Positions 2,526 through 17,692 of a stretch of 40,754 nt of DNA are shown in pieces. The DNA is taken from positions 1 to 40,754 of the IMG/VR virus record IMGVR_UViG_3300049847_000163; one strand, given 5' to 3'. The stretch is from a virus. The notes below the pieces were generated by a model. The model was not told the origin of the DNA. It worked only from the letters and a program-made list of their open reading frames with translations, and did no database searches. The position numbers were made by a program, and so were the translations under genes. The stretch's first letter is position 1; every line of letters begins with the position of its first letter.

Positions 2526-2729
2526 TCAGTTCGATCCCAGTTGTCGTGCTTGTGCGTCTGTGAGTATACCAGCAGTAACCAGCATATCAAGCGTGACGTA
2601 GCGGTCTTTGTACGTACCTCGTACCCCCTGAGCGACTTCTACATGCTCCTTGACTGCACCAAGAAACGACTGCATAGCCTGACTCTCATTCTGAGGTATC
2701 TGCCCCAGTCCAGGTTTATTGTTTATCAC
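2526..2729 (-). CDS. Small virion-operon protein, 67 aa
   Basis: Unrecognised. It starts on an ATG that overlaps the TGA of the upstream 559-aa gene (ATGA overlap) and ends one base before the next ATG, so it is locked into the operon by translational coupling. The sequence is soluble, with one amphipathic helix (about residues 17-33) and a C-terminal stretch (VTLDMLVTAGILTDAQARQL) that resembles a short helical docking segment. No motif assigns a function. Confidence 0.55.
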   Translation of the reverse strand: MINNKPGLGQIPQNESQAMQSFLGAVKEHVEVAQGVRGTYKDRYVTLDMLVTAGILTDAQARQLGSN

Positions 2730-4405
2730 TGTGGTTTCCCCTCAGTTAGATCATCGATACTTGTAGCCATGTGTATTTCGTATACATCTGGCTTACCCTC
2801 TACTTGCATAAACCAACGCTCCGTATCCCGGTAGAACCTTGGGAGTCTAAACGGCTCACTCGAAGTTACCTCACGAGAAAACTTAAGTTGGTCATTCACA
2901 AATAGAGAGAATATAAGTGGTAGCACAGTACCACCTTCTTGCCTATACTCGCCAGTAATCTTTACTGCTGCAAAGCTCGTGATATAAGGCATCACGAAAG
3001 CTTTACTCCGCCAGCGGTAAACTAACCTCTCAGAGCTAGCTTCCCACTCGTACAGTACGTTATCGCGGTTCTTCTGTCCGACGAAGAAGAAGTCTGTATC
3101 AGGATTTGCGTAGGCCGCCGTCGCGTAGAAGTTTAACGTCGTCAGTTTATCTCGTTGTTCTACGCCTGTAGCTCTATCGTTATAATCAAAGACGAACCCG
3201 GCCCCTTGGGGGTCAACAAGGCTGTAATCTTGCCCATGATCGGTTAGGTAGAAACCAACATAGCGCCCATCATGGATTACTCCATGCAATGTTGTCGGGT
3301 TAAATCTCTGCCACTCATCACGACTTAGTACATCACGAGTAATAACCTGTAGCCCACCGTAACCCACCCATACGAGGCCGTCAGCGCTTGCGTAAAGTAC
3401 CCCTCGATCACCGGATACCATTGAGCGCTTAGACGCACAGGGATAGGGATCAGGTAACTTTTCGATAGACAAATTCTTTGGGCTTACGCCGCTAACAAGA
3501 TAGGTGAATCCTGTGGTAGCTACAACTATTGTACTACCATATATACCTAAAGCTACTATAGGATACTCAAAAACCTTCGTATATTCAGGAGGATATGCGT
3601 GGGGCTGATATGCTTCTGATATATACAACTGATTCCCAGCAAACCCTGCTAAAAATCCTCCTGGGTGTGAAATAAGCCCCGTCATATTATGGGGTGGGGG
3701 GTACCACTGCTGTGAAGGTAGGCGTTCTAGTAGATCAATATCCAAGAAGGTATCTACATAGGATGTCTGAGAAACCAAAATCATATCAACGAATAAAATC
3801 TCTGTTGTAGATGTACCAGTCTCATATCGGTAAATTCGGATATGAGTGACATTCTCCGAAGTAGGCGCAGCAAACCCTGAAATAGTCGCTGCTTGCCCAT
3901 CCATCATACCTACAACTACAGACGGATTTGACGGTACGCCTTCTTCAGCTAGGGCTGTGACAAAGGTGTACAGGTATGCACGCTGCTTCACCGTCCCCGT
4001 ACCACCTGTACCTAGTGCTACTATGGGTGGTGTGGTAGGTGCGTCTACACCCAATGTATAAGCTTGTGAAGGGTAAGGAAGCTGTGTTGTAGCTCGGGCT
4101 AAAGTAGTAACCTTCGGCCTACCATCTCCCGTATAGTATATGCGCCCTTCAGTGTCTCCTGGAAGAAAGCTGCGTTGGACGTTCACGTCTGCATTCCAAG
4201 ATAGCCAATAACCGTTCAAATTATATATTGTTTCGATGAACCCACGACGTAGCTTCGTAGGATCAACGAGCGGGGCGCGTAAAGCCCGTATCTCTCCAGA
4301 CCACAACTTGCAATTCTCCGCAACTACAGCAGCATTCGGAGGCAGTAATCTCTGCGAGATACGCGGCGCGATCCCGCCAAAATTCTGTATGCGTAGGCTT
4401 GGCAT
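2726..4405 (-). CDS. Conserved phage structural protein, 559 aa
   Basis: The N-terminus (NFGGIAPRISQRLLPPNAA, then VAENCKLWSGEIRAL) is a signature I recognise from large virion proteins of many podovirus-like phages, usually annotated only as structural. The rest is rich in beta strands and aromatic residues with regularly spaced Gly-Tyr and Trp, consistent with a propeller-like tail or nozzle component. The C-terminal region ends in a beta-rich segment (YRDTERWFMQVEGKPDVYEI). It starts just after the TAG of the third oxygenase gene. Its exact place in the particle is not shown by the sequence; tail/nozzle is inference from size and gene order. Confidence 0.7.
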   Translation of the reverse strand: MPSLRIQNFGGIAPRISQRLLPPNAAVVAENCKLWSGEIRALRAPLVDPTKLRRGFIETIYNLNGYWLSWNADVNVQRSFLPGDTEGRIYYTGDGRPKVTTLARATTQLPYPSQAYTLGVDAPTTPPIVALGTGGTGTVKQRAYLYTFVTALAEEGVPSNPSVVVGMMDGQAATISGFAAPTSENVTHIRIYRYETGTSTTEILFVDMILVSQTSYVDTFLDIDLLERLPSQQWYPPPHNMTGLISHPGGFLAGFAGNQLYISEAYQPHAYPPEYTKVFEYPIVALGIYGSTIVVATTGFTYLVSGVSPKNLSIEKLPDPYPCASKRSMVSGDRGVLYASADGLVWVGYGGLQVITRDVLSRDEWQRFNPTTLHGVIHDGRYVGFYLTDHGQDYSLVDPQGAGFVFDYNDRATGVEQRDKLTTLNFYATAAYANPDTDFFFVGQKNRDNVLYEWEASSERLVYRWRSKAFVMPYITSFAAVKITGEYRQEGGTVLPLIFSLFVNDQLKFSREVTSSEPFRLPRFYRDTERWFMQVEGKPDVYEIHMATSIDDLTEGKPQ

Positions 4406-4407
4406 AG

Positions 4408-5028
4408 CTACCCCGAGAAGTTATTTGTTGCTGGGTTGATAAGTCCCCATATTAGCTGCATCGAGTTCCTACGTCCATTCGTAATTGGTAGTACTTGATG
4501 CGGGAAGTTCTTGTTTGAGGGGAACATGACAAACTCCCCAACTTCAGGCTTAATTTTCAACCCTTGCCTGGGAAACTCTATCTCTCCCCCACTATAGTCG
4601 TTATTGAGGTACAGCACTGTAGTGATACCCCGTTGAAAATCTACTCCTACCATAGTGCCTGTAGTCGTCTGTGCGTGGTCATCCGTATGCAATTTAATCC
4701 CCCGCCCAACAGGGTAACTGAAAAGCTCTGTATTAGTTCTAAAGGGTGTAGCAGTCGTATCGAAATTATCTCTCGCATATTGATATGCTATATCATTAAG
4801 CCGCGCAGCTAGAGGTACAGCAAAATCTGGGAATACAACAGATACAGATTGCCTTGCTTCATAATCAACTACAGCTTTCCCATCTAAACCATAAGCTCCG
4901 TGTTCTGCGTACTTCTTTGTGACCCAACACTCATCGATATAATTATTGAATAGAGCCGCGTCGAAAGCCAACTTACCACGTAGTAATGTGGTTCCTTCTT
5001 TCATCACGCTTTCAGCATAGCTAATCAT
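4408..5028 (-). CDS. 2-oxoglutarate/Fe(II)-dependent oxygenase (P4H-like), copy 3
   Basis: A 206-aa protein of the prolyl-4-hydroxylase-like 2OG-Fe(II) oxygenase fold. The iron ligands are visible as HTD in KLHTDDH and the distal His in FPHQV. The 2-oxoglutarate-binding Arg is in GRR. Between them lies the usual YLN...GGEIEFP strand pair and the KPEVGEFVMFPS strand. The ATG at 5028 overlaps the upstream TGA (ATGA) and is preferred over a TTG five codons upstream. The family hydroxylates protein side chains (commonly proline), nucleic acids or small molecules, using O2 and 2-oxoglutarate. The substrate is unknown. It is the last of three paralogous genes embedded in the virion operon. Confidence 0.85.
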   Translation of the reverse strand: MISYAESVMKEGTTLLRGKLAFDAALFNNYIDECWVTKKYAEHGAYGLDGKAVVDYEARQSVSVVFPDFAVPLAARLNDIAYQYARDNFDTTATPFRTNTELFSYPVGRGIKLHTDDHAQTTTGTMVGVDFQRGITTVLYLNNDYSGGEIEFPRQGLKIKPEVGEFVMFPSNKNFPHQVLPITNGRRNSMQLIWGLINPATNNFSG

Positions 5029-5639
5029 AAATCGAATCTCCAAGTTGTTTGTAGCAACATGCGTTGCCCTGAGACTATTGGTAGGACACCATGCTTGTAC
5101 TTGTAATGTGCAGGGAACATAACCAACATACCATACTTAGGCTCTATTCGTAGGTCGGGATTTGGGAAGTACAACTCTCCCCCCTCGAAATCAGTTCCTT
5201 GCGTGCTTAGATATAACAAAGCCACAAGTTGATTCGCCCAATTAAACTGTACTGTACCAACCCCATAGTCCATATCTGCGGGGTCTTGGTCATCACAATG
5301 GATTGGGCATCCTACTCCCTCTCCATATAGCAATACAACACTAGACTGCCGTGTAGGAGTTCTCCCCGTGTAATTATAGAAACTCTCTGCTGCGGTTACT
5401 TCTTGCTGAATCCGTTGTTCTAGTAAAGGCTTAGCAGCTAACTCCACATCATAGCTACGCCTACCACGTTCTCTACCGTTGTCCGTGCTGTAAGTACGTG
5501 ATGGCTTTTTAGTTTCCTCCCATGTCTGCTGTATTGCACTCCTATAATCGTCTTCTAGTGTAAGCATGCGTATACGAATACCATCCTTGCCATCAGGGGT
5601 AGATACGTTAAACAGTGGATTAGGCAGCGGGCGTATCAT
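5025..5639 (-). CDS. 2-oxoglutarate/Fe(II)-dependent oxygenase (P4H-like), copy 2
   Basis: A 204-aa paralogue of its two neighbours. The iron-binding HxD is HCD (in CPIHCDDQ), the distal His is in YKYKHGVLP, and the 2-oxoglutarate Arg is in SGQR. The strand GGELYFP matches GGAIEFP and GGEIEFP in the other copies. I start it at the ATG at 5639, giving [10 protein letters not shown], because copy 1 begins similarly ([13 protein letters not shown]). A TTG at 5684 would add 15 residues with no support. It overlaps copy 1 by 20 bases and copy 3 by 4 bases, so all three are translated as one unit. All catalytic residues are present, so it is probably active. Confidence 0.85.
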   Translation of the reverse strand: MIRPLPNPLFNVSTPDGKDGIRIRMLTLEDDYRSAIQQTWEETKKPSRTYSTDNGRERGRRSYDVELAAKPLLEQRIQQEVTAAESFYNYTGRTPTRQSSVVLLYGEGVGCPIHCDDQDPADMDYGVGTVQFNWANQLVALLYLSTQGTDFEGGELYFPNPDLRIEPKYGMLVMFPAHYKYKHGVLPIVSGQRMLLQTTWRFDL

Positions 5640-6246
5640 AAAAATAATAATGTCTGACAAAAGCAAATCTACCGCCAATAACAACTGGTGTTACTTGGTG
5701 GGGAAACTTGTAGTTAGATGGGTATACTAGCATCGTACCGCTTTTAGGTATGATCGATAACTGCTGCTTCGGAAACTCTATAGCTCCTCCTTCCAGATCA
5801 GGACTAACAACATAGAGTATCGCTGCTAACTGGTTGAGCAAGTGCATCACATACTTAGTCTTCCCCTGTTTTTCTGGTGCTTTATGTTGGTCATCTGTAT
5901 GAAGCCCTGAATAAGCGCCAACCCCATAGAATAAAAACTGTTCCCGGCTCTTGTACGGGAACTTACCCTCGCCCCACTGCGTAACAACTTGCTGCATCTC
6001 AGCGTCTAACGTACTAAAAATACTGACTACTAGGCTATCTCTAGTTTGTATATCTACGGAAGTTCTAAGCCGCTTACTCTCGTCCCCGCTTGCTGCATTG
6101 GGATCGAATGACAAAGCCAGCGCTGCTCCCTCTGGTAGAAAGCGCTGCGCTAGCTCTGCGTATAGATTAGCTGGGAGTGTTAGCTGCTTGTGTACAACTT
6201 CACCTTGCACCTCGTAGACTGGGTTTGGGATAGCTTGTGCCAGCAT
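5620..6246 (-). CDS. 2-oxoglutarate/Fe(II)-dependent oxygenase (P4H-like), copy 1
   Basis: A 208-aa 2OG-Fe(II) oxygenase with HTD in GLHTDDQH, the strand GGAIEFPKQ, distal His in YKFPHQVTP and Arg in IGGRF. The open frame extends upstream through the repeat tail of the preceding gene and there encodes a Cys-Asp-Ser run, but that is a frame shadow. The real start is the ATG at 6246, two bases after the TAA of the 307-aa adhesin-like gene. No clear ribosome site precedes it, so ribosomes finishing the adhesin probably reinitiate here and couple the two products. The adjacent (Val-Thr-Pro)8 tail is a plausible but untested substrate. Confidence 0.85.
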
Positions 6247-6248
6247 GA

Positions 6249-7172
6249 TTACATAGCAGCGCCAATAGCTCCACCTACGGGTGCTACAAGTCCCACAGGA
6301 GTCACAGGAGTCACAGGAGTCACAGGAGTCACAGGAGTCACAGGAGTCACAGGAGTCACAGGAGTCACAGCAGCAACAGGGGCTACAGGAGCACCACAAG
6401 ATGTATTTGCTTGCAACGCAGTACACAATGCTACCCATTGTGCCGGAGTTGCATTGTTGATGAACGCGGTAATCAGTGCATTCATATCAAGATGCAACGG
6501 ATCAGCTATAGTCCCTGTGCCTAAAATCGGTGCTAGTGCATGTGCACGGGCAACAAGCGTAGGAAATTCTGCGGGCACCCCAGGGCCAGGATTAGGTAGT
6601 GTTTGGTTCTCTACCGCGAGCAGTGAAGTAGAATCAATCCGCAGTGCAATACGGTTATTTGTATCGACATAGATAGGATCAGTTGTGCCCGGTAGTGCCC
6701 CTACAGTGAACCACTGTGTACCATTCCAATGATAGAGTATGTTAGGTACTGTTGCTGTATTGACGACATACTCAACGCAACCGCTAGGCGCTGTGTTAGG
6801 TGGAGTAGTTACTAACGCGGTATTACTAGGAGAGCATCTACCAGCAAGCGCCTTAATAATCTCATCGCCAATATACTCCTTGAACTGCTGCACATTCCAT
6901 GATAACTTTACACATGACCCTGCTGGGAAAGCCCTAGCGATCGTATTATCCTGTGCTCGTTGTACTTGTATGTTGTCATTACCTAAAGGGGTAGTAGATG
7001 TGTACTTAACAACTTCGCTGCCTACACGATCTTCGATTGTTAGATAGCAGTAGTCGCCCAACGTAAATTCAAATAGTACACCTTCACCTACACTTAAAGG
7101 TAGGATAGTGTCCCCCGGTGCTATTGGAGCACGCAAGGTAGCGGTAAGAAAATTAACTAGTCGTAGTGCCAT
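6249..7172 (-). CDS. Adhesin/fibre-like virion protein with (VTP)8 tail, 307 aa
   Basis: The N-terminus (residues 1 to about 115) aligns without gaps over the first 48 residues to that of the 413-aa protein and shares the later segment FPAGSC...VQQFKEYI, so both carry one virion-attachment or baseplate-like module. The middle contains segments typical of fibre proteins ([28 protein letters not shown]). The C-terminus is a Pro/Thr/Val-rich tail with eight Val-Thr-Pro repeats, then [14 protein letters not shown]. The tail is probably extended. It overlaps the 59-aa gene by 20 bases and is followed two bases later by an oxygenase gene. Receptor-binding or fibre function is inferred from domain style and location. 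Confidence 0.65.
6295..6366. repeat. 9-bp minisatellite, 8 perfect copies (ACAGGAGTC)
   Basis: Eight identical head-to-tail copies of ACAGGAGTC (plus strand), with degenerate partial units on both sides, encode the Val-Thr-Pro repeats of the 307-aa minus-strand gene. Identical third codon positions in every copy indicate recent expansion by slippage. The 9-bp unit keeps the frame, so copy number can vary without breaking the gene. Confidence 0.95.
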
Positions 7173-7332
7173 TTTGGTTCTCTTTTATCTGTTTCAATTC
7201 TGTCGCGATAAGAACGCTCTCTTGCGCAGCTTCTCTGCCTCGTGCTGCCCATAAACCTACTTGCGCCTCTGCAAGTTCAGTCCGTGTCTGCCATAGCTTC
7301 AATTCAAGCTCTAATTCTTTTTGCGTTTTCAT
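7153..7332 (-). CDS. Small coiled-coil protein between two adhesins, 59 aa
   Basis: The ATG at 7332 overlaps the TGA of the 413-aa gene (ATGA). The frame runs to a TAA at 7153, inside the next gene. The translation begins MKTQKELELELKLWQTRTEL and is almost wholly helical with heptad-like Leu/Ala spacing (about residues 5-50). It is charged, with no membrane segment. A gene of this type, a short coiled coil wedged between two related adhesins, also occurs at 15,390. A trimerisation partner or fibre chaperone is a reasonable guess, not shown. Confidence 0.6.
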   Translation of the reverse strand: MKTQKELELELKLWQTRTELAEAQVGLWAARGREAAQESVLIATELKQIKENQNGTTTS

Positions 7333-8570
7333 ACATTTACCATAAGTTGTATTTTATATATTGTACCGTTCACTTCAATTGGTAGATACTGTCCAGAGGC
7401 TGCCCCTGCTGTGGTTACAAGTAGGGCTGTTGTAGCGCTAGTATCATTGAATACCAACCCACCATTATCTACACGAAACCCAAAACGAGACTGGCCTTTC
7501 CATGTAAACCCCCACATACCAGTTGTATCATTATAGCTTGAGTTTAGTGCATCAATACTATTACCATTCCACTCTACTCCTAGCTTAGAGCGTAACTGTA
7601 TTAAAGCTTTAACACGTGGAATATCCGTGTCGGCTATATCACTGAAATCGATGCCAATAGCCTTAGTTATCCCTGTTTCATCAAGAGAACCTGCTCCAAA
7701 ATGTATCCCCCGCAACCATCCACAAAACTCACCTGCGGAACTACGGGGTTGCGATACAATAGCAAAGGCTGTAGACCGCTGGTTGTATTTATTCGCACCT
7801 ATTCCCGCTGGTGTTGCAGACACATTATCTGGACGGTCACGGAAGTAAGACATATACCCAATTTTTTCGTTGGGGTTATTAGAGTCCTGGCTATATACTG
7901 AAGCAGTTGCCCCGTATAAAGGAGCTAGTGCACCCGGCGCTGTCCATGCTTCACTGACGCTACCTATGATAGTACCTGTAGCTCCTACGTCTGCTCGTGC
8001 AGTAAACTTTGCGCCATAGAGAGACGCACCCCCTGAAGTACGTTTTACAGAAGCTAGAAAGCCATACTGAGATTTATCTATGGCTGTGGAATACCCGATC
8101 CATAGTCCCTTGTCTAACTGCAATAAATTATCCCCTGCTACAAGCGATGTATCCCATACAGCATCTTTGAATGCTACAGCACCGTTAAACTGATTACTCC
8201 CAACCCAAGTATTATTCCTACCTAGTAAAGTTGTGTCAATTAGAGGTTGTTGAACTGTGCACTCTTGAACCTTTTGGCATACAAAATCATCAAGGTACCT
8301 GCAAGTGATAGATACGCAAACTGAAGCCCCAGCAGGAAAGTTCTGGGTATCTCGGTAACGAGTGATAGCTAACTCACCGTCTACAATTCGTCCGCCATCA
8401 AAACGTACTTCTTCTTGTATACCGTTAGCCTCAATTATTAGGTATACGTAACTATCTACAGGTAGATTAAATTGCACTACATCTTCGAGTGCAATCTTCA
8501 TAGTTGTATCAGTATGCTGTAGAGGGCACCGTAGTATAGAGCAAGCTGCTATACATAGAACTTTTTTCAT
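7329..8570 (-). CDS. Adhesin/fibre-like virion protein, 413 aa
   Basis: The start MKKVLCIAACSILRC looks like a signal peptide but is more likely a virion module. It aligns residue for residue with the N-terminus of the 307-aa protein (shared L5, L13, R14, P16, D21-T22, then Y-x-Y-L-x-I-E). A ribosome site AAGGAA lies 5 bases upstream. Residues about 115-400 look like a tail-fibre or spike shaft and head: many Gly/Ser/Thr, SLYGAKFTARADVGATGT, and a C-terminal region ending in GQYLPIEVNGTIYKIQLMV, a style common in phage fibre ends. It is followed by ATGA-coupled small coiled-coil and second adhesin genes. Confidence 0.65.
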   Translation of the reverse strand: MKKVLCIAACSILRCPLQHTDTTMKIALEDVVQFNLPVDSYVYLIIEANGIQEEVRFDGGRIVDGELAITRYRDTQNFPAGASVCVSITCRYLDDFVCQKVQECTVQQPLIDTTLLGRNNTWVGSNQFNGAVAFKDAVWDTSLVAGDNLLQLDKGLWIGYSTAIDKSQYGFLASVKRTSGGASLYGAKFTARADVGATGTIIGSVSEAWTAPGALAPLYGATASVYSQDSNNPNEKIGYMSYFRDRPDNVSATPAGIGANKYNQRSTAFAIVSQPRSSAGEFCGWLRGIHFGAGSLDETGITKAIGIDFSDIADTDIPRVKALIQLRSKLGVEWNGNSIDALNSSYNDTTGMWGFTWKGQSRFGFRVDNGGLVFNDTSATTALLVTTAGAASGQYLPIEVNGTIYKIQLMVNV

Positions 8571-8582
8571 GTTTATTCCTTG

Positions 8583-9587
8583 CTAGATCGTCGAAGCAGC
8601 TAGGGCAAAGTATGGCCGCCACTGTACGCTTTGCCCCTCAATTGCAAAATCAAGTTGTATATTACCTAGCTTGATACCCTTATCCCATAGCTGAAGTTCG
8701 ATATTAGCAAAACCTAAAAAGAAGGCTGCTCGTACATAACCTATACCTATAGCTGGGTCATACTGTACGTTGTATAACGTAGAGTTTGTTCCTTGCTCTG
8801 TATACACATCTACGATTGTTACTTGATCTATCGGCGTGCCTAGTACCTTGAAAAAATATGTCCTGAAAGCCTCGAAAGGAACTTGCTGTATCCCACTATT
8901 ATTCACATCGAACGGGCCGACTTCACTGCTTATCGGCTCTGCCCAAGCTAGCGCTAATGGGGTAGCGGGGGGTAAAGGTACTGTGCAATCTCCCTGAACT
9001 ACTGGGGAACAACTTCCAGTAGTTACGCATGTATCTATAGTATCCGTAGCTATACACGGAACTACTCCGCATGAAGGATCAATAGCACCTAGAGGCCCTT
9101 TCCCTATAGCATCCTCACAACCAGGAGCACATGCCTTCTCGCGTTCAGTACGGCAGGCAACAACTACAGCCTCACACCTACGTATACGAAACTCTACTGT
9201 AAAACAATACTCATCGTTGATAAAAATATCACCTAGGTAATAGCCATACGGTTGGAGTAAGAAATCAGTATCCCAATAAAAACATACCTCGTTCTCGTTA
9301 TTGATTGAGAAAGCATCATAGGTCGCAATAATTACTTCGCGCCCTTTACGCAGCAGTTCAATCCGTACACAAGCACAACCAAACAATAGTTGTTGCGTTG
9401 GACTTAACAAACTTGTATTCATCTTGAACCAAGACTTTGCTACTGATGTGTCAATATCAATAATCCCACAACCGCTATACCTACGCTTTCGTGGTAAAGG
9501 GGCCGAGCGAGTAATACAACCACATAGCTGTGCTAAAGACTCCGGTGGTACAACTACTGGAAGTGGGGGAGTAATTGGAGTAGGCAT
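8583..9587 (-). CDS. Cysteine-rich virion-operon protein, 334 aa
   Basis: I do not recognise the family. The ATG overlaps the TAA of the upstream gene (TAATG), so it is tightly coupled. The protein has an unusually high number of Cys, most in residues 20-210, including CGC, CAC and a cluster ERKACAPGC...SCGVVPC. The segment 55-140 has aromatic beta-strand patterns (VCFYWDTDFLLQPYGYYLGD) and the C-terminal 110 residues are beta-rich without Cys. It lies between the connector-like and adhesin genes, so a tail or tail-adhesin adaptor is likely. The Cys may bind metal or form disulfides after release. Function is inference. Confidence 0.5.
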   Translation of the reverse strand: MPTPITPPLPVVVPPESLAQLCGCITRSAPLPRKRRYSGCGIIDIDTSVAKSWFKMNTSLLSPTQQLLFGCACVRIELLRKGREVIIATYDAFSINNENEVCFYWDTDFLLQPYGYYLGDIFINDEYCFTVEFRIRRCEAVVVACRTEREKACAPGCEDAIGKGPLGAIDPSCGVVPCIATDTIDTCVTTGSCSPVVQGDCTVPLPPATPLALAWAEPISSEVGPFDVNNSGIQQVPFEAFRTYFFKVLGTPIDQVTIVDVYTEQGTNSTLYNVQYDPAIGIGYVRAAFFLGFANIELQLWDKGIKLGNIQLDFAIEGQSVQWRPYFALAASTI

Positions 9588-10192
9588 TAGAAACGTGCTC
9601 CTCGCATAAGCAGTGGCCCTGTTGCTCGCTGCATCACGCGGCTATTTTTAGCTCTGGTGATACCTGCATTGAACCGTTTTGTATAGTACGTAGCTAAAGC
9701 TGCGCTTGTCCAAGAAGACTTAGGCATTGCGAAACACCGAGAAGCTGCGCCATCAGCAATAGTTTCTGCCCAGTCTTCGTATAGGTCATCGTCCAAGTCA
9801 CATGCATCTTGAAGCGGCTTGATCGCGGTCTGAATCATTATCGCCTGTTCTTCATCTTGATTGTGCGGAGGGATAATTATCCGATCTCCATCAATACGAA
9901 ATCCATGACAAGCGCACCCCGAGCAAAAGCCTTGTCTATTTACGCTTAGGCAACAGCCACCTATGCGTATCTGCGATATAGCTACCAGACGTGTTCCAGC
10001 AGGGACTTCGATTGGGTAGTCCCCGACGCCCTCTTGAGCATCTAGGGTCACAGTATGCCGCCAAATATGACTACGTTCACATAACTCAATCGTAGCCTTT
10101 CTAAGATGGAATACACCTATCTCAGGAGGGACACTAACTAGCCCTCTTGCTCCAAACAGGTCTGGAATTAGGTCTTCAAAAGTTCGCGCCAT
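9587..10192 (-). CDS. Probable head-tail connector/tail protein, 201 aa
   Basis: The N-terminal pattern (FEDLIPDLFGARGLVSVPPE, then FHLRKATIELCERSHIWRHT) followed by a short beta domain (YPIEVPAGTRLVAISQIRIGG) and a helical C-terminus (LYEDWAETIADGAASRCFAM) resembles a family of small connector or tail proteins in podovirus-like phages, in which a helix with Glu-x-Cys-Glu-x-Ser precedes a Trp. It overlaps the upstream gene by 17 bases. Its position, two genes after the capsid genes and before the tail-type genes, supports a connector or tail-completion role. The exact role cannot be read from sequence. Confidence 0.6.
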   Translation of the reverse strand: MARTFEDLIPDLFGARGLVSVPPEIGVFHLRKATIELCERSHIWRHTVTLDAQEGVGDYPIEVPAGTRLVAISQIRIGGCCLSVNRQGFCSGCACHGFRIDGDRIIIPPHNQDEEQAIMIQTAIKPLQDACDLDDDLYEDWAETIADGAASRCFAMPKSSWTSAALATYYTKRFNAGITRAKNSRVMQRATGPLLMRGARF

Positions 10193-10898
10193 CTTGGACT
10201 ACCTGTTGTGGTTGCTGAAGCTGTGGAGTCACCTGACGTTGTTGCGTACGTGCGTTCGTACCTATGGAAGACTTAACTCCGAGTAAATGGTAAAACGCAT
10301 CGTAGTGCATCCTAGCACGTTGCAGTGATGTTTGAGACTCAGTATCCCGCATAAAGGCTCGGTACAACGCCCAATCCTTCATAGCATTAAAATAGAGCGC
10401 TGCGTCTCCACCAGTAAAAACAATATCGTCGTCGATACTACCAATCATTTGTGGGGAAGACTGCCCTAGTATCTGTACATACTGATCTGGGTATTGTTCG
10501 ACTGGGCTAACATAGAAAACTCTTGGGTTAGCTGCGTCTATACTGAATGAACGCACCTCGGTAGCTGTCTTTGATATACAGCTAGTCTTATTGAAGTAGC
10601 GTATTAAATTATAGTCGTTGCGTAAAATAGGCGACCCTAATGCCCCATCTACAGCTATATTATTGGTGACATCCATAAGCTTTGCTATCGATGTCGGAAT
10701 ACGCTGTGCTGCTCCTGGCCTCAGCTTAATAGTCTGAGTAACTGCAAATAGATCAGGCTTAAAAAGCGCAAGTTGCTCTATCGCTTCAGTGATGTATTCA
10801 AATATATCATTGAGCAGCCAACGTACATGCTCATGCCCTGGCTCTCTATCATTAAGCTCGTCACTGATTGTGTCAACTAAGCGCTTTACTAACATCAT
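10176..10898 (-). CDS. Probable head-tail connector (DUF6682-like), 240 aa
   Basis: I place the start at the ATG at 10898 (MMLVKRLVDTISDEL) because a TTGGAG ribosome site lies 6 bases upstream. The open frame begins 9 codons earlier. The layout matches a small phage family (DUF6682-like, from memory): an N-terminal helix with a 'last rung' segment WLLNDIFEYITEAIEQLALFKPDLFA, then T-x-K-L-x-P-G-A-A-Q-R-I-P and a later RVFYVSPVEQYP. Such proteins sit between the capsid and tail genes and probably form part of the head-tail interface. The C-terminal 30 residues are Gln-rich. It overlaps both neighbours, indicating coupled translation. Confidence 0.6.
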   Translation of the reverse strand: MMLVKRLVDTISDELNDREPGHEHVRWLLNDIFEYITEAIEQLALFKPDLFAVTQTIKLRPGAAQRIPTSIAKLMDVTNNIAVDGALGSPILRNDYNLIRYFNKTSCISKTATEVRSFSIDAANPRVFYVSPVEQYPDQYVQILGQSSPQMIGSIDDDIVFTGGDAALYFNAMKDWALYRAFMRDTESQTSLQRARMHYDAFYHLLGVKSSIGTNARTQQRQVTPQLQQPQQVVQDGANF

Positions 10899-11223
10899 CA
10901 AATACTCCAAGTCCTGATGTATCAACTTCAGATGCCCCGGAACCCTTGCTCATTTTCTTGATATTCTCAAGAAACTCTGCGTACATATTCTGCGCCTTAG
11001 CGAAAGGTGTTTCGTCAGGTATGTCAAGTCCTTTCCGCATAGCGGCCTCACGCAATTCTACCAGTGTTCTCGGTGCTCGCTCACGCAAAGCTACTGGCCC
11101 CTTATCAGGGACTAGAAACTCTGTAAACTCCAATCCATTACCTATACGGTCTGCATGGTATGCGTCTACATAGATATATACATGCCCATGTATATCCTTC
11201 ACATACTTTATATCCTCAACCAT
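10873..11223 (-). CDS. Small virion-operon protein, 116 aa
   Basis: Unrecognised. A strong AAGGAG ribosome site precedes the ATG. The N-terminal 60 residues suggest a small beta domain (IKYVKDIHGHVYIYVDAYHADRI cut at its centre), followed by helical segments with Arg/Glu (ALRERAPRTLVELREAAMRK) and a Lys/Ser/Gly tail. It is the first gene after a strong hairpin that follows the head genes. A minor head or assembly protein is possible, but nothing in the sequence decides. Confidence 0.5.
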   Translation of the reverse strand: MVEDIKYVKDIHGHVYIYVDAYHADRIGNGLEFTEFLVPDKGPVALRERAPRTLVELREAAMRKGLDIPDETPFAKAQNMYAEFLENIKKMSKGSGASEVDTSGLGVFDDVSKALS

Positions 11224-11239
11224 CTTAAGCTCCTTGTAG

Positions 11240-11265
11240 GGGCAGAGGCCGAAGCCTCTGTGCCC
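11240..11265 (-). terminator. Strong cUUCGg hairpin after the head genes
   Basis: On the minus strand GGGCA-CA-GAGGC and GCCTC-TGCCC pair around a TTCG loop closed by C-G, the extra-stable cUUCGg tetraloop, with a 2-base bulge. No T-run follows, so it is not a textbook intrinsic terminator. It lies between the 196-aa head gene and the ribosome site of the next gene. It may attenuate transcription or protect/process the capsid mRNA end. Confidence 0.6.
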
Positions 11266-11274
11266 TCATCTCAT

Positions 11275-11865
11275 TTACGCGTTTCCATGATCGAGATCAA
11301 GTACGTGCGCTGTAATCCACATATTCAAACCACCTCCGCCACAATCAGGTAGTACACCTGCTGTAGGTACTGCTGTGAGTACCATATTGAGGTAGTCCTC
11401 ATCAGTAATCATAACACCTGCACCAGCAGCTACAGGTACATAATTAGCAAGCACGCAACCCGCAGCATTCTTACGGACGACGCTTGCATCAACCGCACTT
11501 GCGATCACCGTAGCTTCATTCTTCAAGTTAATGGAGAACGTTAGCCCCGCCATTGGGTTTACGATACCGTAAGACACGCCCAAGAGCAACGTGCTGGGTA
11601 ATAGCAAATGCGTCTGAAGCTCGTCGTTAGCCGCGACTGGATGGTCACGAAAATAACACACGAGGCTCTGATCCTTACCACCTTTGCCATAGGGCACAGC
11701 AGCACGCAGATCAATGCGACGCGTCACACCGTAACTACGCTCACGCTGATGATCCGCGTAAGAATAGGGAGGGTTACATGCAGGTGGAGTTGTACCACTC
11801 GGGAGCATCTGGTTCGTAGTACGGTTCGATGCGTTCCCGCCTTCAAAGATTTTGTGAATAGCCAT
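11275..11865 (-). CDS. Probable second head (decoration/minor capsid) protein, 196 aa
   Basis: Unrecognised family, but it sits directly downstream of the major capsid gene with its own good ribosome site (AAGGAA), and its N-terminus MAI is like that of the coat protein. It is a soluble, beta-rich protein with SYGVTRRIDLRAAVPYGKGG near residue 45, LLLPSTLLLGVSYGIVNPM around 90-110 and a Gly/Cys turn (DCGGGGLN) near the end, followed by MWITAHVLDL. The C-terminal third resembles small head or tail proteins. Decoration protein or head-fibre role is inferred from position only. Confidence 0.5.
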   Translation of the reverse strand: MAIHKIFEGGNASNRTTNQMLPSGTTPPACNPPYSYADHQRERSYGVTRRIDLRAAVPYGKGGKDQSLVCYFRDHPVAANDELQTHLLLPSTLLLGVSYGIVNPMAGLTFSINLKNEATVIASAVDASVVRKNAAGCVLANYVPVAAGAGVMITDEDYLNMVLTAVPTAGVLPDCGGGGLNMWITAHVLDLDHGNA

Positions 11866-11898
11866 GATATTTCCTTATTTACCTTTCAAGGTTGGGGG

Positions 11899-12855
11899 TT
11901 ACTGGAAACGAACGTATGCCATCGCCAAGCCTTCGCTCTGAATGACTTTATGCCCATAGACAGTCATGCCTTGCATGTAAGTATCCCAGCTATCCTTGTC
12001 GTTATCGACAACACGGGTCTTCTCGATCTGGGCCGCAAACGCGGTAGCCCCACGCCAGCCTGCAATGATCTGGTAGCAATCAGTGCTAACTGCGGCATCG
12101 AACACCTTGCAAACATTATGTGAGATGTACACATCGAAACCAGCAATCTTCGCAGGAATTTTTCCATTGAGGACACCGTTAGACGCAATATCACAGCAAG
12201 CTCCAGCTAGTGCTGGGTTCTGCGTGATTTTTGGGCTGTTAAGCAGGTACGACTCTGCAATATCTGGTAGCACGATGAACAGGTCATTCATAGGAACACA
12301 CTGCTCTTTTAGAGTAGCGCGAATATATGTCATGACTTCCCATATGTTTGCAGAAGTGATAGACAACGGAGCGCCGACAGCACCCAAGTTGTATACACCA
12401 GACTTAACGCCTGCTTTTGCACCTTTATTACAAGGATGTGCATCAAGCGCCATCTTGCATAGAAGCTCTGCGTCGATCTCTTCTGTCATCTCGTAGGCCG
12501 CGGACTTCAGAAGTGACGACTCCCATTTAGACCAATTGCAGATTTGCTCAATATCAACTTGAGAAATCTTCACGGAGAACTCAAGCAACTGGTCGATAGT
12601 CATCGTCACAGGGCACGTATCAATCGTGTCATGTTTGATTGTGCCGTCCTTGACGTTGCGTCGTACTGTTACCTTTGGGGTACGGAAAAAAGTGATTTGG
12701 TCACCACACTTCTTCAGTTCACCCGTGTACTCAGTAGTTGTGATGTCACCCATGACTGCCGTGCAGTAAAACTGCTCGATCAAGTCCATCGAGAACATCG
12801 GAGGAATCAGGCTCCCACTGTATTGGGGGTAGCCGGATGCTGCTGGAATAGCCAT
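11899..12855 (-). CDS. Major capsid protein, 318 aa
   Basis: The 318-aa length, a strong AAGGAG ribosome site and location right after a coiled-coil scaffold candidate point to the coat protein. The N-terminus (SGSLIPPMFSMDLIEQFYC, then GDITTTEYTGELKKCGDQIT) and the segment RRNVKDGTIKHDTIDTCPVTM followed by LLEFSVKISQVDIEQI match a P22-coat-like/HK97-fold capsid group in which 'G..g.tI.i' and 'k....a..idd.d' strands surround the long spine helix. The last third (IAGFDVYISHNV...WRGATAFAAQIEKTRV...GMTVYGHKVI) is the typical closing part. It contains eleven Cys, unusual for a coat protein. Confidence 0.8.
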   Translation of the reverse strand: MAIPAASGYPQYSGSLIPPMFSMDLIEQFYCTAVMGDITTTEYTGELKKCGDQITFFRTPKVTVRRNVKDGTIKHDTIDTCPVTMTIDQLLEFSVKISQVDIEQICNWSKWESSLLKSAAYEMTEEIDAELLCKMALDAHPCNKGAKAGVKSGVYNLGAVGAPLSITSANIWEVMTYIRATLKEQCVPMNDLFIVLPDIAESYLLNSPKITQNPALAGACCDIASNGVLNGKIPAKIAGFDVYISHNVCKVFDAAVSTDCYQIIAGWRGATAFAAQIEKTRVVDNDKDSWDTYMQGMTVYGHKVIQSEGLAMAYVRFQ

Positions 12856-12866
12856 ATTAGTGCTCC

Positions 12867-13994
12867 TTAACGATTAAAAATACCAGCGTCGTCTTCGACT
12901 CGGCCCTCAGCCTTAGCCTTATGGAACGCTGTTTTGTACGCTTCCCAATCTGTAGCTGAAAGGGTTTTGCCTCTTAGGTACTCAGCTTGCTTCTTAGCAT
13001 AGTCTGAAGACTTGAAGACAACCTTTGCCGCAGGTTGGCGCTCAGCAGCGGACTTAGGTGGTACGACTAACCCCTGTAGCCCACTGCCCTTACTGTCATT
13101 ACGCATTTGAAATTCATTGAACAAAGCAACAATACCTGGGAGATACTTCTCTTTCCGGTAATGCGCAAGCATGTGCCCCTTCAATACACCAAGTTTGTTT
13201 CCTGATGGACTATCTAAGAAAGCTTTCCACTCAGGTGTCTTAACAGTGCTTTCCCACTTTGGTACATGAGGTGTTAGCTCTCTGTTGTAGTAGGTTTGCT
13301 CTGCGGCTCTAGCTGCTTCTACAGCTAAAGCCTGATGTGATTTAGCAATATCAGTAACTTGTTGCCCAACTGGAAACAGTTGTTTCACTTGTTCCTTTAG
13401 TGCCTCAACTTCCGAAAGCAGCGACTTAACAATAGGTACGAATTGCTTTTTGGTTATTCCACGAATCATCCGAATATCTTTGGGATCAAAGGTCTGCACC
13501 TCATCCTCAGAGAGTTCGTCTGTTGTATCGTCGAGCCCAGCAAGTCGTTCCTTCTGCACACGTTTAGCTTCGAGTTCTCGAAACTCATCACGTTGGCGCT
13601 CTGCTTCAGAAACACGTGCTTCCAATGTCCGTACTGCATCATCTTGAAAATGCAACCGTGCCTCGGCTAAATCAGCCCTCTTCGCTTCTGCTTGAACACG
13701 TCCAAGCATAGAAGAGTACTTCTGCTTAAGGGCAGCAATCTCTTGCTGAACCTCTGCGATAGTCTCAGGCGCTGTTGCATTCTGCAACTTGCCGTTCAAA
13801 ACATCGAGTTGTTGTGTGTAGTTTTCAAGAGCCTTTTCATCTGAAGGAGATATATTTACTATCTCCTTAATAGGCTCTGTATCAACTATAGGAGCAGCAG
13901 GGGTAGCAGCAGCCGCAACAATAGTTGCTTGCGCTGCGTCTGCCTGGGCCTTCATTTTATCTCTTTGCTTCGTGATTACAGATGGGACTGCCAT
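12867..13994 (-). CDS. Probable capsid scaffolding protein, 375 aa
   Basis: The ATG at 13994 (MAVPSVITKQ) is chosen because TTGGAG lies 7 bases upstream. An ATG two codons earlier is only one base from it. The protein is highly charged. A long coiled coil spans about residues 55-150 (LENYTQQLDVLNGKL; AEARLHFQDDAVRTLEARVS), an acidic stretch follows (DDTTDELSEDEV), then another helical part and a basic C-terminus rich in Lys (residues about 325-375). Coiled coil, acidic middle, basic C-terminal tail and position directly before the coat gene are standard for scaffolds, in which the basic end binds the coat protein. Confidence 0.7.
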   Translation of the reverse strand: MAVPSVITKQRDKMKAQADAAQATIVAAAATPAAPIVDTEPIKEIVNISPSDEKALENYTQQLDVLNGKLQNATAPETIAEVQQEIAALKQKYSSMLGRVQAEAKRADLAEARLHFQDDAVRTLEARVSEAERQRDEFRELEAKRVQKERLAGLDDTTDELSEDEVQTFDPKDIRMIRGITKKQFVPIVKSLLSEVEALKEQVKQLFPVGQQVTDIAKSHQALAVEAARAAEQTYYNRELTPHVPKWESTVKTPEWKAFLDSPSGNKLGVLKGHMLAHYRKEKYLPGIVALFNEFQMRNDSKGSGLQGLVVPPKSAAERQPAAKVVFKSSDYAKKQAEYLRGKTLSATDWEAYKTAFHKAKAEGRVEDDAGIFNR

Positions 13995-14024
13995 TTTCAT
14001 TCTCCAAGGGCCTACTTAGGTGCC

Positions 14025-14261
14025 TCATTCAACATTAAATAAACTGATTAGTTCTCGTGTACGACGCGCAGAGCCTTGGATTCTTCGTACCTGCTCTGGT
14101 TGTTCCGCCATCACGAGTGCTTCTTTGTCTGTTTCGTATAGGTGTATTAGATACTCCAAAAGTGCTCTGCCTTCTGGCTTACCCTTAACACGCAAAACTG
14201 CGTCTTTTAGCCGTGCACTATCTACCACAGCAACCGCCCCGCTGTGCAGGTGCTTTCGCAA
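14025..14261 (-). CDS. Small protein overlapping the 50-aa gene, 78 aa (start uncertain)
   Basis: The frame opens at a TTG (14261), 43 bases inside the preceding 50-aa gene. A GTG (in GTGGTAGATAGTG, overlapping that gene's stop) would be a shorter alternative. The coding part is plausible: ARLKDAVLRVKGKPEGRALLEYLIHLYETDKEALVMAEQ is a well-formed helical sequence. It may be the second half of one protein whose first half is the 50-aa gene, one frame away, through a frameshift, an assembly error or ordinary translational coupling. It lies just upstream of the scaffold gene. Function unknown. Confidence 0.5.
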   Translation of the reverse strand: MRKHLHSGAVAVVDSARLKDAVLRVKGKPEGRALLEYLIHLYETDKEALVMAEQPEQVRRIQGSARRTRELISLFNVE

Positions 14262-14370
14262 TAGGTAGTTTCAGGCTACCTAGAGTACGTGCATTGGTAG
14301 ATGTCTTCAGTGCAGGTAAATTGATTGGACTCTTACCGGGCGCTGGTTTGGGGAGGGACTGTGTTGCCAT
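14218..14370 (-). CDS. Small Pro-rich protein, 50 aa (too short for common cut-offs)
   Basis: ATG at 14370 with a good ribosome site (AAAGGAAG, 4-5 bases away), stop TAG at 14218. The translation starts MATQSLPKPAPGKSPINLPA and ends in QRGGCCGR. It is basic and Pro-rich, probably unstructured. The end overlaps the frame of the 78-aa gene by 44 bases. The strong ribosome site and the lack of one for the downstream frame suggest that expression of the second depends on the first. Confidence 0.55.
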   Translation of the reverse strand: MATQSLPKPAPGKSPINLPALKTSTNARTLGSLKLPIAKAPAQRGGCCGR

Positions 14371-14415
14371 CTCGCTTCCTTTCAAAAGTTTAACTATACT
14401 CCTATTACCTATATA

Positions 14416-15387
14416 TTAAGGTAAACGTGTTGCGATAATGATTGCGCCAATATCAAGGCCAACAGCCAGCGCTGTGGCGTTATTTGTACGCCATGCCTGT
14501 AAGCCCAGCATGGCGGTCAAGGCGGGCAGCGTTGTACCGACGGCACCTGTCAGCGTACCGTTCGCAGTAAACGCCGTGCCAATACGATTGAGGTGCCATC
14601 CCACCTTATAGCCCGCCGATGTTGGCAAGCGTGGCGCATATAACGTCAACACATACGCATCGGTAGCCAGTGTATTGATAGGAAAATTTGCGCCCAAGTC
14701 AACAGGAGCATTAGCCGCGCTACCGCCCGTGAATAGCTTGAGGTTCGTATCAGCGGCCCCGTGACCAACGCCGATACAGTTAAGTAAGGTAGAAGGCTCA
14801 ACATTGGTGGCCGCTAGTGGCGTAGCTTGAATACCTACAAACTGACGTGCCCCGGCTACAGCGGCTGCATCTGAACAGCCAAACATAATCTGGAAAAAGA
14901 AGCCACCGAGCGTGTCATTGCCCAGCGTCACGAAAGTGGACGCTTGTCTTAATTGCGAAAAAGCCGCTGCTGTCGCAGCCGACACATAACCATTCCGAAT
15001 TTCACGCGCCAACGCATTCGTTACTGCTACAACTCTTGCAGTCAGCGTACCCGTAGCAGACAGTGCAGAAAACCCCTGTACGCCAGGAACAACACCGCCC
15101 GCGCCAGGTATCCAACGCGCGATGACGCAGTTGCTGTCGCTAATATTGGGTGCAGTCCATGAGGTACCGTTAAACCCCACTACAGCAGCAGTTAGTGTTC
15201 CTGCAAGCGTCACATCACCTGTACCACCGTCAACTCCCGTTTGCGTCAGCGTCATACCCTGTGCACTAAGTGATCCCCCAAGAATTAGCTTTTTGATAAC
15301 AGCGCTGCCAGCAGTAGTCGCGTTTAGATCAGCCCGTTGTATAGACTCATCTAAAATTTGCCCGCCACGTGCTTGAGTAAGTGCCAT
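14416..15387 (-). CDS. Fibre/adhesin-like virion protein, 323 aa
   Basis: The N-terminus MALTQARGGQILDESIQRADL parallels MALTLVRGSTQILDGSITWA of the 362-aa protein, so both share an attachment end. Residues 40-100 have the Gly/Thr/Val beta style of fibre shafts (TGDVTLAGTLTAAVVGFNG). The rest is Ala/Gly/Thr-rich with NGTSWTAPNISDSNCVIARW. Base composition is higher in G+C than the adjacent genes (see findings), suggesting a module acquired from elsewhere. No enzymatic motif is visible. Receptor-binding protein is the likely role, but the receptor is unknown. Confidence 0.55.
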   Translation of the reverse strand: MALTQARGGQILDESIQRADLNATTAGSAVIKKLILGGSLSAQGMTLTQTGVDGGTGDVTLAGTLTAAVVGFNGTSWTAPNISDSNCVIARWIPGAGGVVPGVQGFSALSATGTLTARVVAVTNALAREIRNGYVSAATAAAFSQLRQASTFVTLGNDTLGGFFFQIMFGCSDAAAVAGARQFVGIQATPLAATNVEPSTLLNCIGVGHGAADTNLKLFTGGSAANAPVDLGANFPINTLATDAYVLTLYAPRLPTSAGYKVGWHLNRIGTAFTANGTLTGAVGTTLPALTAMLGLQAWRTNNATALAVGLDIGAIIIATRLP

Positions 15388-15389
15388 AG

Positions 15390-15662
15390 CTATTCCGTAG
15401 TGCCTTGAGTAACTCTTTTTTTCCGCATGCTGTCTATGGTAGGGATAGGCTTACCACGCATCTGGTCTGCAAGCTTTGCGTTGTCTTCAGTAACCGTAAC
15501 TAATTTCTTTTGTGTCTCAGCTAAAGCAAAATGTAGCCGTGCATTTTCAGCTTGTAGCCGTACTACATCTTGTTTGAACTGTAAAGAATTGGCATATACA
15601 ACACCAAAATCTTTGGCTAGTTCATCTACGAAAGCTGCTTGTTGTTCATCAAGAGAGGTCAT
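15390..15662 (-). CDS. Small coiled-coil protein between two fibre genes, 90 aa
   Basis: Residues about 25-70 (LQFKQDVVRLQAENARLHFA then ETQKKLVTVTEDNAKLADQM) form a convincing coiled coil with Leu/Val heptads. The ends are short and polar, with a basic Lys/Arg tail. There is no signal or membrane segment, which argues against a spanin. It is placed between two fibre genes with related N-termini, exactly as the 59-aa gene is in the second adhesin cluster. A fibre chaperone or trimerisation factor is a reasonable guess. Confidence 0.6.
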   Translation of the reverse strand: MTSLDEQQAAFVDELAKDFGVVYANSLQFKQDVVRLQAENARLHFALAETQKKLVTVTEDNAKLADQMRGKPIPTIDSMRKKRVTQGTTE

Positions 15663-15668
15663 TGCTTA

Positions 15669-16757
15669 TCACTTCAGATAATCGGCAAGTACAACATCGC
15701 CTGTTTGGGGTATAGTCAGCATCGTGATAGTAGCCCCGCTGATTGTATAGTCATTACCAGCGCCGGGATTTAGTCGAACACCATTGAGATAGACTGCTTG
15801 CTTACCTGTAAGCGGCGCTGCGGCTAGAGTGAACGTAGCGTTTGCGCCGTTAATGGTACCTGTAGGTAGCTCATTGAACACATCATTGGCTGCTTTGACA
15901 ACACCAGATACGCCTGTGGCTAATGTCAATACACCTGTACCACTCAAAGTAGCATCACCGCTGAGCGTAGTGAAGGTAGCTCCAGGGTTAGCTACCATTA
16001 TCTGACCAGCAGCACCATCTGCAATCTTTACGCCAGTTGCAGATACGTTCAAGCTTGTGCCGTTAGGTACTACTTGAACATTACCAGTACCGTCAAAACC
16101 TAGTCCACTTGCTGCTGCTAGTTTGACTGAGAAAGCATTACCTGTAAGTGCAATACCTTTGGTAGTGTCTGCGGTATAGGTAGCCCCTGTCGTATCCTGC
16201 ACTGCGGAGACTGCTGTCGTATCAACAACGATAGCATCTGCGGCTACAGTCCATTTGGTATCAGCTACACCCGTACCTTCTTGGATAAACAACTGGAAAG
16301 ATTTTTGGCTGCTTGCTGCTGCCCACTGTGTCGGACGTGTCCAAGCTCCAGCATTCATCTGCCAGAAACCATTTTGGCTTGCCGTAGTCTGTGCATTCAA
16401 CCAGACAATATCACCTGCTGCACCTGTTAAGCCATTGAAGTTCTGGACTCCAGACAATGATACGACGTTAGTGGAAACAAGTGTCCGTGCACCCCGTGCA
16501 ACACCAAATCCATTTACAAAAGTCTGTAGCGTCTGTAGGTTAACTAGGTCTGTCGCGGCTACCGGGTTACCAGCATTTGTGACTGGGAACCCGCCAGCAT
16601 TCAATGAAGCTGTCATTGCGACAGAGCCGTCCTTCTTCAGGAAGTTAGCCCCATCTACTAGAGAGGATGTTGGAACAATTGCACCTGCGGCTATCTTTGC
16701 CCAAGTGATTGACCCATCAAGAATCTGCGTTGATCCGCGAACAAGTGTCAGTGCCAT
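15669..16757 (-). CDS. Tail fibre-like protein, 362 aa
   Basis: The start has AGGAG 5 bases away. The sequence looks like a phage fibre. The N-terminus is short and shared with the 323-aa protein. A phage-fibre segment with NAGGFPVTNAGNPVAATDLVN (a very common motif before the fibre body) is followed by beta-repetitive Gly/Thr/Val segments with GDIVWLNAQTTASQNGFWQM, then several TGV-type repeats. The C-terminal 70 residues (FNELPTGTINGANATFTL; VYLNGVRLNPGAGNDYT; TGDVVLADYL) form the beta module also found in the 116-aa neighbour. Receptor binding or fibre shaft function is inferred from these motifs. Confidence 0.75.
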   Translation of the reverse strand: MALTLVRGSTQILDGSITWAKIAAGAIVPTSSLVDGANFLKKDGSVAMTASLNAGGFPVTNAGNPVAATDLVNLQTLQTFVNGFGVARGARTLVSTNVVSLSGVQNFNGLTGAAGDIVWLNAQTTASQNGFWQMNAGAWTRPTQWAAASSQKSFQLFIQEGTGVADTKWTVAADAIVVDTTAVSAVQDTTGATYTADTTKGIALTGNAFSVKLAAASGLGFDGTGNVQVVPNGTSLNVSATGVKIADGAAGQIMVANPGATFTTLSGDATLSGTGVLTLATGVSGVVKAANDVFNELPTGTINGANATFTLAAAPLTGKQAVYLNGVRLNPGAGNDYTISGATITMLTIPQTGDVVLADYLK

Positions 16758-16765
16758 GATATCTC

Positions 16766-17116
16766 CTAAATAATTACTTCAACCGAAACAATATCGCCTG
16801 TGACTACTTCAAGTATTGCAGGCATCGTGAGCAACTTATCTACGATAGTATAAGTCCCCCAGCGCTGCCTCAATCCATTGATATATACCCCATTTACTTT
16901 GAGTACATTAGTAGGTAGTGTATACATCTGCTGCCCATCTACAGTAGCGACAAAAGAAACCTCGTCAAAATCTGTTGGTAGAACTCCATTTGCTACGCCT
17001 ACACCAAAACAACGCCCTGGCAACGCGGGGACTACTGGAGCATCTGGAACAACGTAACGTGGGTCACGTACTGTACTTGATGTCTTGATATTTAGTGTAG
17101 GACTACAGGACTGCAT
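16766..17116 (-). CDS. Fibre-module protein, 116 aa
   Basis: The C-terminal half matches the module that ends the 362-aa fibre: DGQQMYTLP, VNGVYINGLRQRWG-YTI and TGDIVSVEVII correspond to NATFTLAAAP, VYLNGVRLNPG-DYTI and TGDVVLADYL. This module occurs at the ends of many phage tail fibres. The N-terminus (about 45 residues) is Cys/Pro-rich and unlike the fibre. The gene lies 8 bases upstream of the fibre gene in the transcript. It may be a separate fibre tip or cap, or a split-off domain. Confidence 0.6.
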   Translation of the reverse strand: MQSCSPTLNIKTSSTVRDPRYVVPDAPVVPALPGRCFGVGVANGVLPTDFDEVSFVATVDGQQMYTLPTNVLKVNGVYINGLRQRWGTYTIVDKLLTMPAILEVVTGDIVSVEVII

Positions 17117-17137: not shown

Positions 17138-17692
17138 TTAAAATGGGACTTGCTCGGTATAAAGTGGAAATACAAACGTACCCCGTGAAGTAATGATCTT
17201 ACCCCACTGCGCGGGTAACCCTAAACCTGTTGCTCCATTACCTGCGAATAACACAGGTGTAGCAGGAGCTACGCCAGGGCTTGAACCAAAATCAACTGCA
17301 AGCCCTCCAGTACCGCCGCTGCTGTTTCCTGTATTGCTAACAACGAAGCTATTCGATGTATCCCACTCAACAGTACGTGCATCCTCTTGATAAGATACAA
17401 CCCAATCCGGTGCCTTACCTGTTACAGTAACCCTATATACCCCAGGAATGCTAAGTAGTACAAATACATTATTTATATCTACCACTACTGCTTGGCCTCC
17501 CATTACGAGGTCTACCCAAGTGTAGCTCTCCTTGCTCATCTGCAATGGTTCGACACGTTGCTGTATTATGCATTTAAGCCCAGTGCCACTACCACGCAAA
17601 ATAACTGGCTGTTCCTCTACCACAACAGTTGCTTCTACAGCCTCTATTGGGTGTATGAGCCAACCAAACCGTGAATTACCTTGTGCACCCAT
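17138..17692 (-). CDS. Virion-operon protein upstream of fibre genes, 184 aa
   Basis: Unrecognised. A good AGGAA ribosome site precedes the ATG. The protein is beta-rich: VEATVVVEEQPVILRGSGTG near the start, a PGVYRVTVTGKAPDWVVSYQ segment like an Ig- or carbohydrate-binding strand pair around residue 90, then a Ser/Gly linker (NTGNSSGGTGG) and a C-terminus with GFGSS-like Pro-rich parts. It begins 14 bases after the portal stop. A fibre-associated or head-fibre protein fits the style and the neighbours. Confidence 0.5.
   Translation of the reverse strand: MGAQGNSRFGWLIHPIEAVEATVVVEEQPVILRGSGTGLKCIIQQRVEPLQMSKESYTWVDLVMGGQAVVVDINNVFVLLSIPGVYRVTVTGKAPDWVVSYQEDARTVEWDTSNSFVVSNTGNSSGGTGGLAVDFGSSPGVAPATPVLFAGNGATGLGLPAQWGKIITSRGTFVFPLYTEQVPF

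Follow-up and report, generated by a model that had tools for sequence, protein, structure and literature searches.

The short-tailed phage represented by the 40,754-base virus record analysed here in full (hereafter the window) probably carries two independent fibre loci, the tail-fibre slot of a Bcep22/GP4-type tail and a mobile cassette, each with a separate small helper protein. The minus strand of the window encodes a terminase, portal, scaffold, capsid protein, two adaptors and a nozzle, and the capsid and portal proteins are distant kin of those of HMO-2011-type marine phages and Rhizobium phages; no prophage relative was found in bacterial genomes with the capsid protein as the query. 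The initial annotation had described two clusters of fibre genes between positions 6249 and 17116, each with a small coiled-coil gene between two large genes, and had proposed a modular unit in which the small protein serves two receptor-binding proteins at one attachment site. All six reading frames are present on the minus strand, encoding proteins of 362, 90 and 323 residues in cluster 1 (F362, CC90 and F323) and of 413, 59 and 307 residues in cluster 2 (F413, CC59 and F307; Table 1). The region is not a single cassette, however, as the clusters lie 5.8 kb apart with scaffold, capsid and adaptor genes between them. Judged by its homologues, cluster 2 appears to be a locus of a known kind and cluster 1 a cassette also found in unrelated phages, which distinguishes a real but ordinary tail-fibre array from the travelling fibre cassette that the same virion also carries.

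Table 1. Genes of the window discussed in the text, with the reading of each and the evidence for it.
Feature	Reading	Position	Strand	Evidence
Nozzle	Tail nozzle protein; closes the tail-fibre slot at its downstream end	2726..4405	-	PDB 8jov_A (6 copies), E 9.6e-83
F307	Probable tail-fibre anchor protein with (PVT)7 repeat tail	6249..7172	-	8jov_1 and BcepIL02 fibre matches
CC59	Small helical protein; putative assembly helper of the downstream fibre	7153..7332	-	Relatives in L002, L003 and L004
F413	Tail-fibre-like adhesin with diverged anchor	7329..8570	-	Anchor homologous to F307, E 6.6e-12
p201	Second head-tail adaptor	9587..10192	-	PDB 8jov_G (12 copies), E 1.6e-11
First adaptor	First head-tail adaptor	10176..10925	-	Pfam SU10_adaptor, 2.3e-17; BcepIL02 gp53, E 1.5e-19
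F323	Fibre with short anchor (about 60 aa) and C-terminal body	14416..15387	-	L040, RcKemmy and P26059A matches
CC90	Small helix-rich, probably coiled-coil protein; putative fibre-assembly helper	15390..15662	-	Heptad test, 8-25 per 1000 shuffles
F362	Fibre or decoration-like surface protein	15669..16757	-	PDB 9nx3 and PHROG matches
p116	Short protein with C-terminal module like that of F362	16766..17116	-	z 5.8 against F362 C-terminus
p184	Surface protein; N-terminal domain recurrent in the slot of relatives	17138..17692	-	Matches in L010, L012, L033 and L035

Within each cluster, the described resemblance between the two large proteins is real. The first 30 residues of F362 and F323 score 44 when aligned, compared with an average of 17.7 for shuffled sequences (z 7.0; none of 2000 shuffles did as well), and F413 and F307 are homologous over about 100 N-terminal residues (z 10.8; hhalign probability 97.5, E 6.6e-12), including an ungapped block of 45 residues whose score of 60 exceeds the best shuffled value, 44. 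Pairwise alignment across the clusters revealed no similarity between the F362/F323 and F413/F307 anchors, or between CC90 and CC59. Because neither the anchors nor the small proteins resemble each other across the clusters, the two are not copies of one unit and their common descent was rejected; the small helical proteins probably arose separately, and the likeness of the clusters is mostly superficial. What survives of the modular proposal is that cluster 1 by itself acts as a recurring module. CC90 and CC59 are both helix-rich. On an ad hoc heptad score (rather than an established predictor) set against shuffled sequences, calling CC90 a coiled coil is reasonable, while for CC59 the signal is weak (about 155-190 per 1000 shuffles as good).

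Cluster 2 lies between the two adaptor genes and the nozzle gene, and its last protein, F307, has a fibre anchor homologous to those of known phages. A profile of the F307 family matches the solved GP4 tail fibre at its N-terminus (PDB 8jov_1, E 5.9e-6), a chain present in 18 copies, consistent with six trimers, and F307 itself matches four fibres of phage BcepIL02 (E 2.6e-5 to 2.9e-9). Since F307, the nozzle and the adaptor match GP4, and BcepIL02 has the same anchor and nozzle, cluster 2 is, on these homologies, taken to be the tail-fibre locus of the known Bcep22/GP4-type tail. The gene that matches 8jov_A is named "internal virion protein" in PHROGs and is read here as encoding the nozzle, as p201 is read as an adaptor from its match to the twelve-copy GP4 protein 8jov_G. 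The two adaptor genes adjoin (window 9587-10925), an arrangement resembling the dual tubeA of PhiGT1 and Bcep22, and relatives in which this region is covered retain the pair, though the number of fibre genes varies.

F307 consists of this anchor and a (PVT)7 tail encoded by a 9-bp tandem repeat (window 6294-6391), with no adhesin domain visible by sequence. The F307-type proteins of two contigs from one metagenome, L003 and L004, likewise end in short repeats (VGVNT, eight and nine copies, respectively), a difference that points to a fibre tail of variable length, while relatives with a single fibre gene have a C-terminal region instead. Three oxygenase genes precede the nozzle gene within the cluster 2 block of the window; all are of the 2OG-Fe(II) type and stand in a row between F307 and the nozzle gene (window 4408-6246), unlike the arrangement in L010-L021, where the fibre and nozzle genes are adjacent. 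It might be speculated that the proline-rich PVT repeats of F307, encoded by the gene before the oxygenases, are a substrate for hydroxylation.

F413 shares the F307 anchor by the profile alignment given above, so that the slot holds more than one fibre gene with a common anchor, but it has diverged strongly. Of the 27 tested positions at which the F307 family does not vary, it keeps 10, against 12-15 in the Burkholderia phage (BcepIL02) fibres, and its own family has conserved cysteines. No BLAST match was found between F413 and the BcepIL02 fibres, and its body had no convincing match among phage records, PDB or PHROGs; relatives of F413 were found only in L003 and L004. F413 would be a second fibre or adhesin whose altered anchor may use a different contact, and the single attachment site that had been suggested for F413 and F307 is doubtful.

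What fills this slot varies among relatives, as judged from viral contigs scanned with exact peptide patterns, which miss distant relatives. Seven of them (L010, L011, L012, L017, L018, L021 and L035) have a single F307-type gene, and two others (L036 and L037) a single gene with no recognisable F307 anchor, so that none of the nine relatives with a readable slot has a small gene there; a tenth contig (L031/L033), too degenerate to read, was left out of this count. The other members of the window's own clade are short contigs. Two of these, L003 and L004, have a 413-type gene, a small gene and an F307-type gene, and in the third, L002, the 413-type gene is lacking but the small gene and the F307-type gene are present. 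The F413 gene and the small gene belong to the clade of the window. In L004 (7301-7771) a relative of p334 is shortened, to 156 aa from 203 aa in the near-identical L003 copy, by a frameshift or assembly error; a p334 profile had no significant match in PDB.

The relatives of CC59 in the three clade members occupy the same place, directly upstream of an F307-type gene in all four members with the window included. Between the L003 and L004 copies, 14 of the 20 codons with a single change are synonymous and 6 nonsynonymous, where 23% synonymous changes are expected (P 1e-5). Because of this synonymous excess, CC59 is a real coding gene, and the two copies are under purifying selection. No relatives of CC59 were found in phage records, and it matched no family in Pfam or PHROG. 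The small gene is not kept as a bridge between paired fibres, as had been supposed: since L002 has CC59 and the F307-type gene in the absence of the 413-type gene, CC59 is tied to the fibre encoded downstream.

In cluster 1, residues 88-273 of F362 match a solved protein, PDB 9nx3 ("Capsid decoration protein", E 6.2e-10), and F362 also matches PHROG 2647 ("head decoration", 4.3e-15); a match to an antibody chain (PDB 8cxc, E 5e-4) was set aside as compositional. The order of a p116-type, an F362-type and an F323-type anchor gene recurs in unrelated phages. Among 21 other F362-like loci, a protein with the C-terminal module common to p116 and F362 is encoded directly upstream in 15, making p116 the usual upstream partner of F362-like genes, and an F323-type anchor gene lies directly downstream in 6. 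The phage of contig L040, with a GpA-type terminase unrelated to that of the window and a lambda-family portal, has the cassette right after the portal gene; its F362 counterpart is 50% identical over the full length and its F323 anchor 61% identical. In L057 the F362/F323-like pair follows the tape-measure gene. No F323-type anchor was found in named phage records, but the F323 body is 49-51% identical to RcKemmy gp22, a siphophage gene adjoining tail-tip genes, and to P26059A_0006, which Curvibacter phage P26059A carries between its terminase and capsid genes. This spread would fit an exchangeable receptor-binding domain.

A capsid position for F362 seems more likely than a tail position because of the 9nx3 match and the place of the gene among head genes. 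Against it stand names given to F362-like proteins, which include "tail fiber", and the location of the genes, which is not among head genes in every carrier: they follow the portal gene in the window and L040 but the tape-measure gene in L057. The interval between the portal and scaffold genes is hypervariable, containing collagen-like fibres, a pectate-lyase-like tailspike or paralogous pairs in relatives and lysis genes in more distant ones. One slot protein, of 1177 aa (L010:2150-5683), joins a p184-type N-terminus to collagen repeats and a pectate-lyase-like domain. Cluster 1 is probably a mobile cassette made up of p116, F362, an optional helical protein and F323 and inserted in the portal-to-scaffold interval, with F362 and F323 probably decorating the virion as a separate set. 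More tentatively, the cassette could be a self-contained adhesion module that moves between unrelated phages and is able to lodge beside the portal gene, bringing head-borne adhesins and their own helper independently of the tail fibres; were this so, the podophage would gain a second, head-borne adhesin set besides its tail fibres.

No relatives of CC90, the small protein of cluster 1, were found in phage records (E up to 1) or, by the exact-pattern scan, in viral contigs, and CC90 was rejected as a conserved family; Pfam and PHROG gave weak coiled-coil matches only. It is missing from the portal-to-scaffold slot of the other podophage relatives that were read, the L004 slot containing instead a small protein of a membrane-helix and coiled-coil type. 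Among six other F362/F323-type pairs a small reading frame separates the fibre genes in one, L040, where a 62-aa helical protein is encoded between the F362-like and F323-anchor genes but has no sequence relation to CC90 beyond that of shuffles; in each of the other five pairs the two genes are separated by 0-5 bases, too few to fit a small gene. What is conserved in the region upstream of the scaffold gene is a different small protein, unlike CC90, of 78 aa (window 14025-14261); it is encoded directly upstream of that gene and has matches in L004, L010, L012 and L017, and several other relatives have small reading frames of similar size at its place.

These distributions bear on what the small proteins do. 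That each is a hub tying two receptor-binding proteins together at one site, with the clusters forming one modular unit, would account for the same gene order in both clusters and the related anchors within each pair, for the retention of CC59 in the three closest relatives and for the helical reading frame between the L040 pair. This reading is nevertheless very unlikely, given clusters without similarity to each other, the presence of CC59 without F413 in L002, and the lack of a small gene in five of six other cluster 1-type pairs and in the nine deeper cluster 2 relatives. The small genes could instead be unrelated to the fibres, minor lysis or regulatory genes for example, placed between them by chance mosaic exchange. 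They are unconserved outside the clade and mutually dissimilar, and the cluster 1 slot does take lysis and other genes in relatives, as well as the membrane-helix protein of L004; yet the constant position of CC59 upstream of F307-type genes, the purifying selection on its L003 and L004 copies and the helical reading frame at the same place in L040 make such an accident improbable.

A further possibility concerns the fibres themselves: F413 and F307 could be alternative occupants of one site, with progeny consisting of virions with mixed fibres, as for Bcep22-like phages, in which there are three or four tail-fibre genes per genome and mixed virions have been suggested (PMC10269572). The homologous anchors and this precedent speak for it. 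F413, on the other hand, keeps too few of the F307-family invariants and has its own conserved cysteines, and F307 has no sequence-visible adhesin domain, so that the two do not look interchangeable and shared occupancy is unlikely. We favour two independent loci, in which F307 carries, by homology, the anchor that joins such fibres to the tail, the exact contact being inferred from GP4, and F307 trimers may anchor at the nozzle region. The small genes most plausibly encode lineage-specific assembly helpers rather than hubs between receptor-binding proteins; most likely each product would help to fold or trimerise the fibre whose gene comes next, much as T4 gp57A acts on the fibres of T4, although neither CC59 nor CC90 has a sequence match to a known chaperone.

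The comparison with gp57A, a 79-residue fibre-trimerisation chaperone (PMC3004832), is a functional analogy between small proteins and no homology is claimed; gp57A is described as having no aromatic residues, cysteines or prolines, and CC59 and CC90 do not all lack these. F362 resembles PDB 9nx3 and PHROG 2647 in its central domain but differs from both in having an additional N-terminal anchor and the C-terminal module also present in p116. In the tail of Ralstonia phage GP4 (PDB 8jov), the nozzle, the second adaptor and the fibre N-terminus are homologous to those of the window, while no GP4 chain matched F413, F362 or F323 by sequence. The GP4 tail reportedly has three types of tail fibre, to go by the title of the study describing it (doi 10.1016/j.jmb.2023.168258). 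A close parallel to cluster 2 is found in the Bcep22-like phages (Lessievirus), with serial fibre genes between the adaptor genes and the nozzle gene (PMC10269572, PMC9144972). BcepIL02 has four fibre genes with the F307-type anchor (gp58, gp59, gp61 and gp62) before the same nozzle gene; their products are 42-66% identical to one another over the aligned N-terminal parts, compared with about 22% for F413 and F307, and a 166-aa gene between them does not look like one for a small helical protein. For PhiGT1- and Bcep22-like tails the question has been raised whether the double adaptor is linked to many fibres (PMC10386132). The family of the window bears on this question, as the paired adaptor genes stay constant while the number of fibre genes changes, from one or two here to four in BcepIL02.
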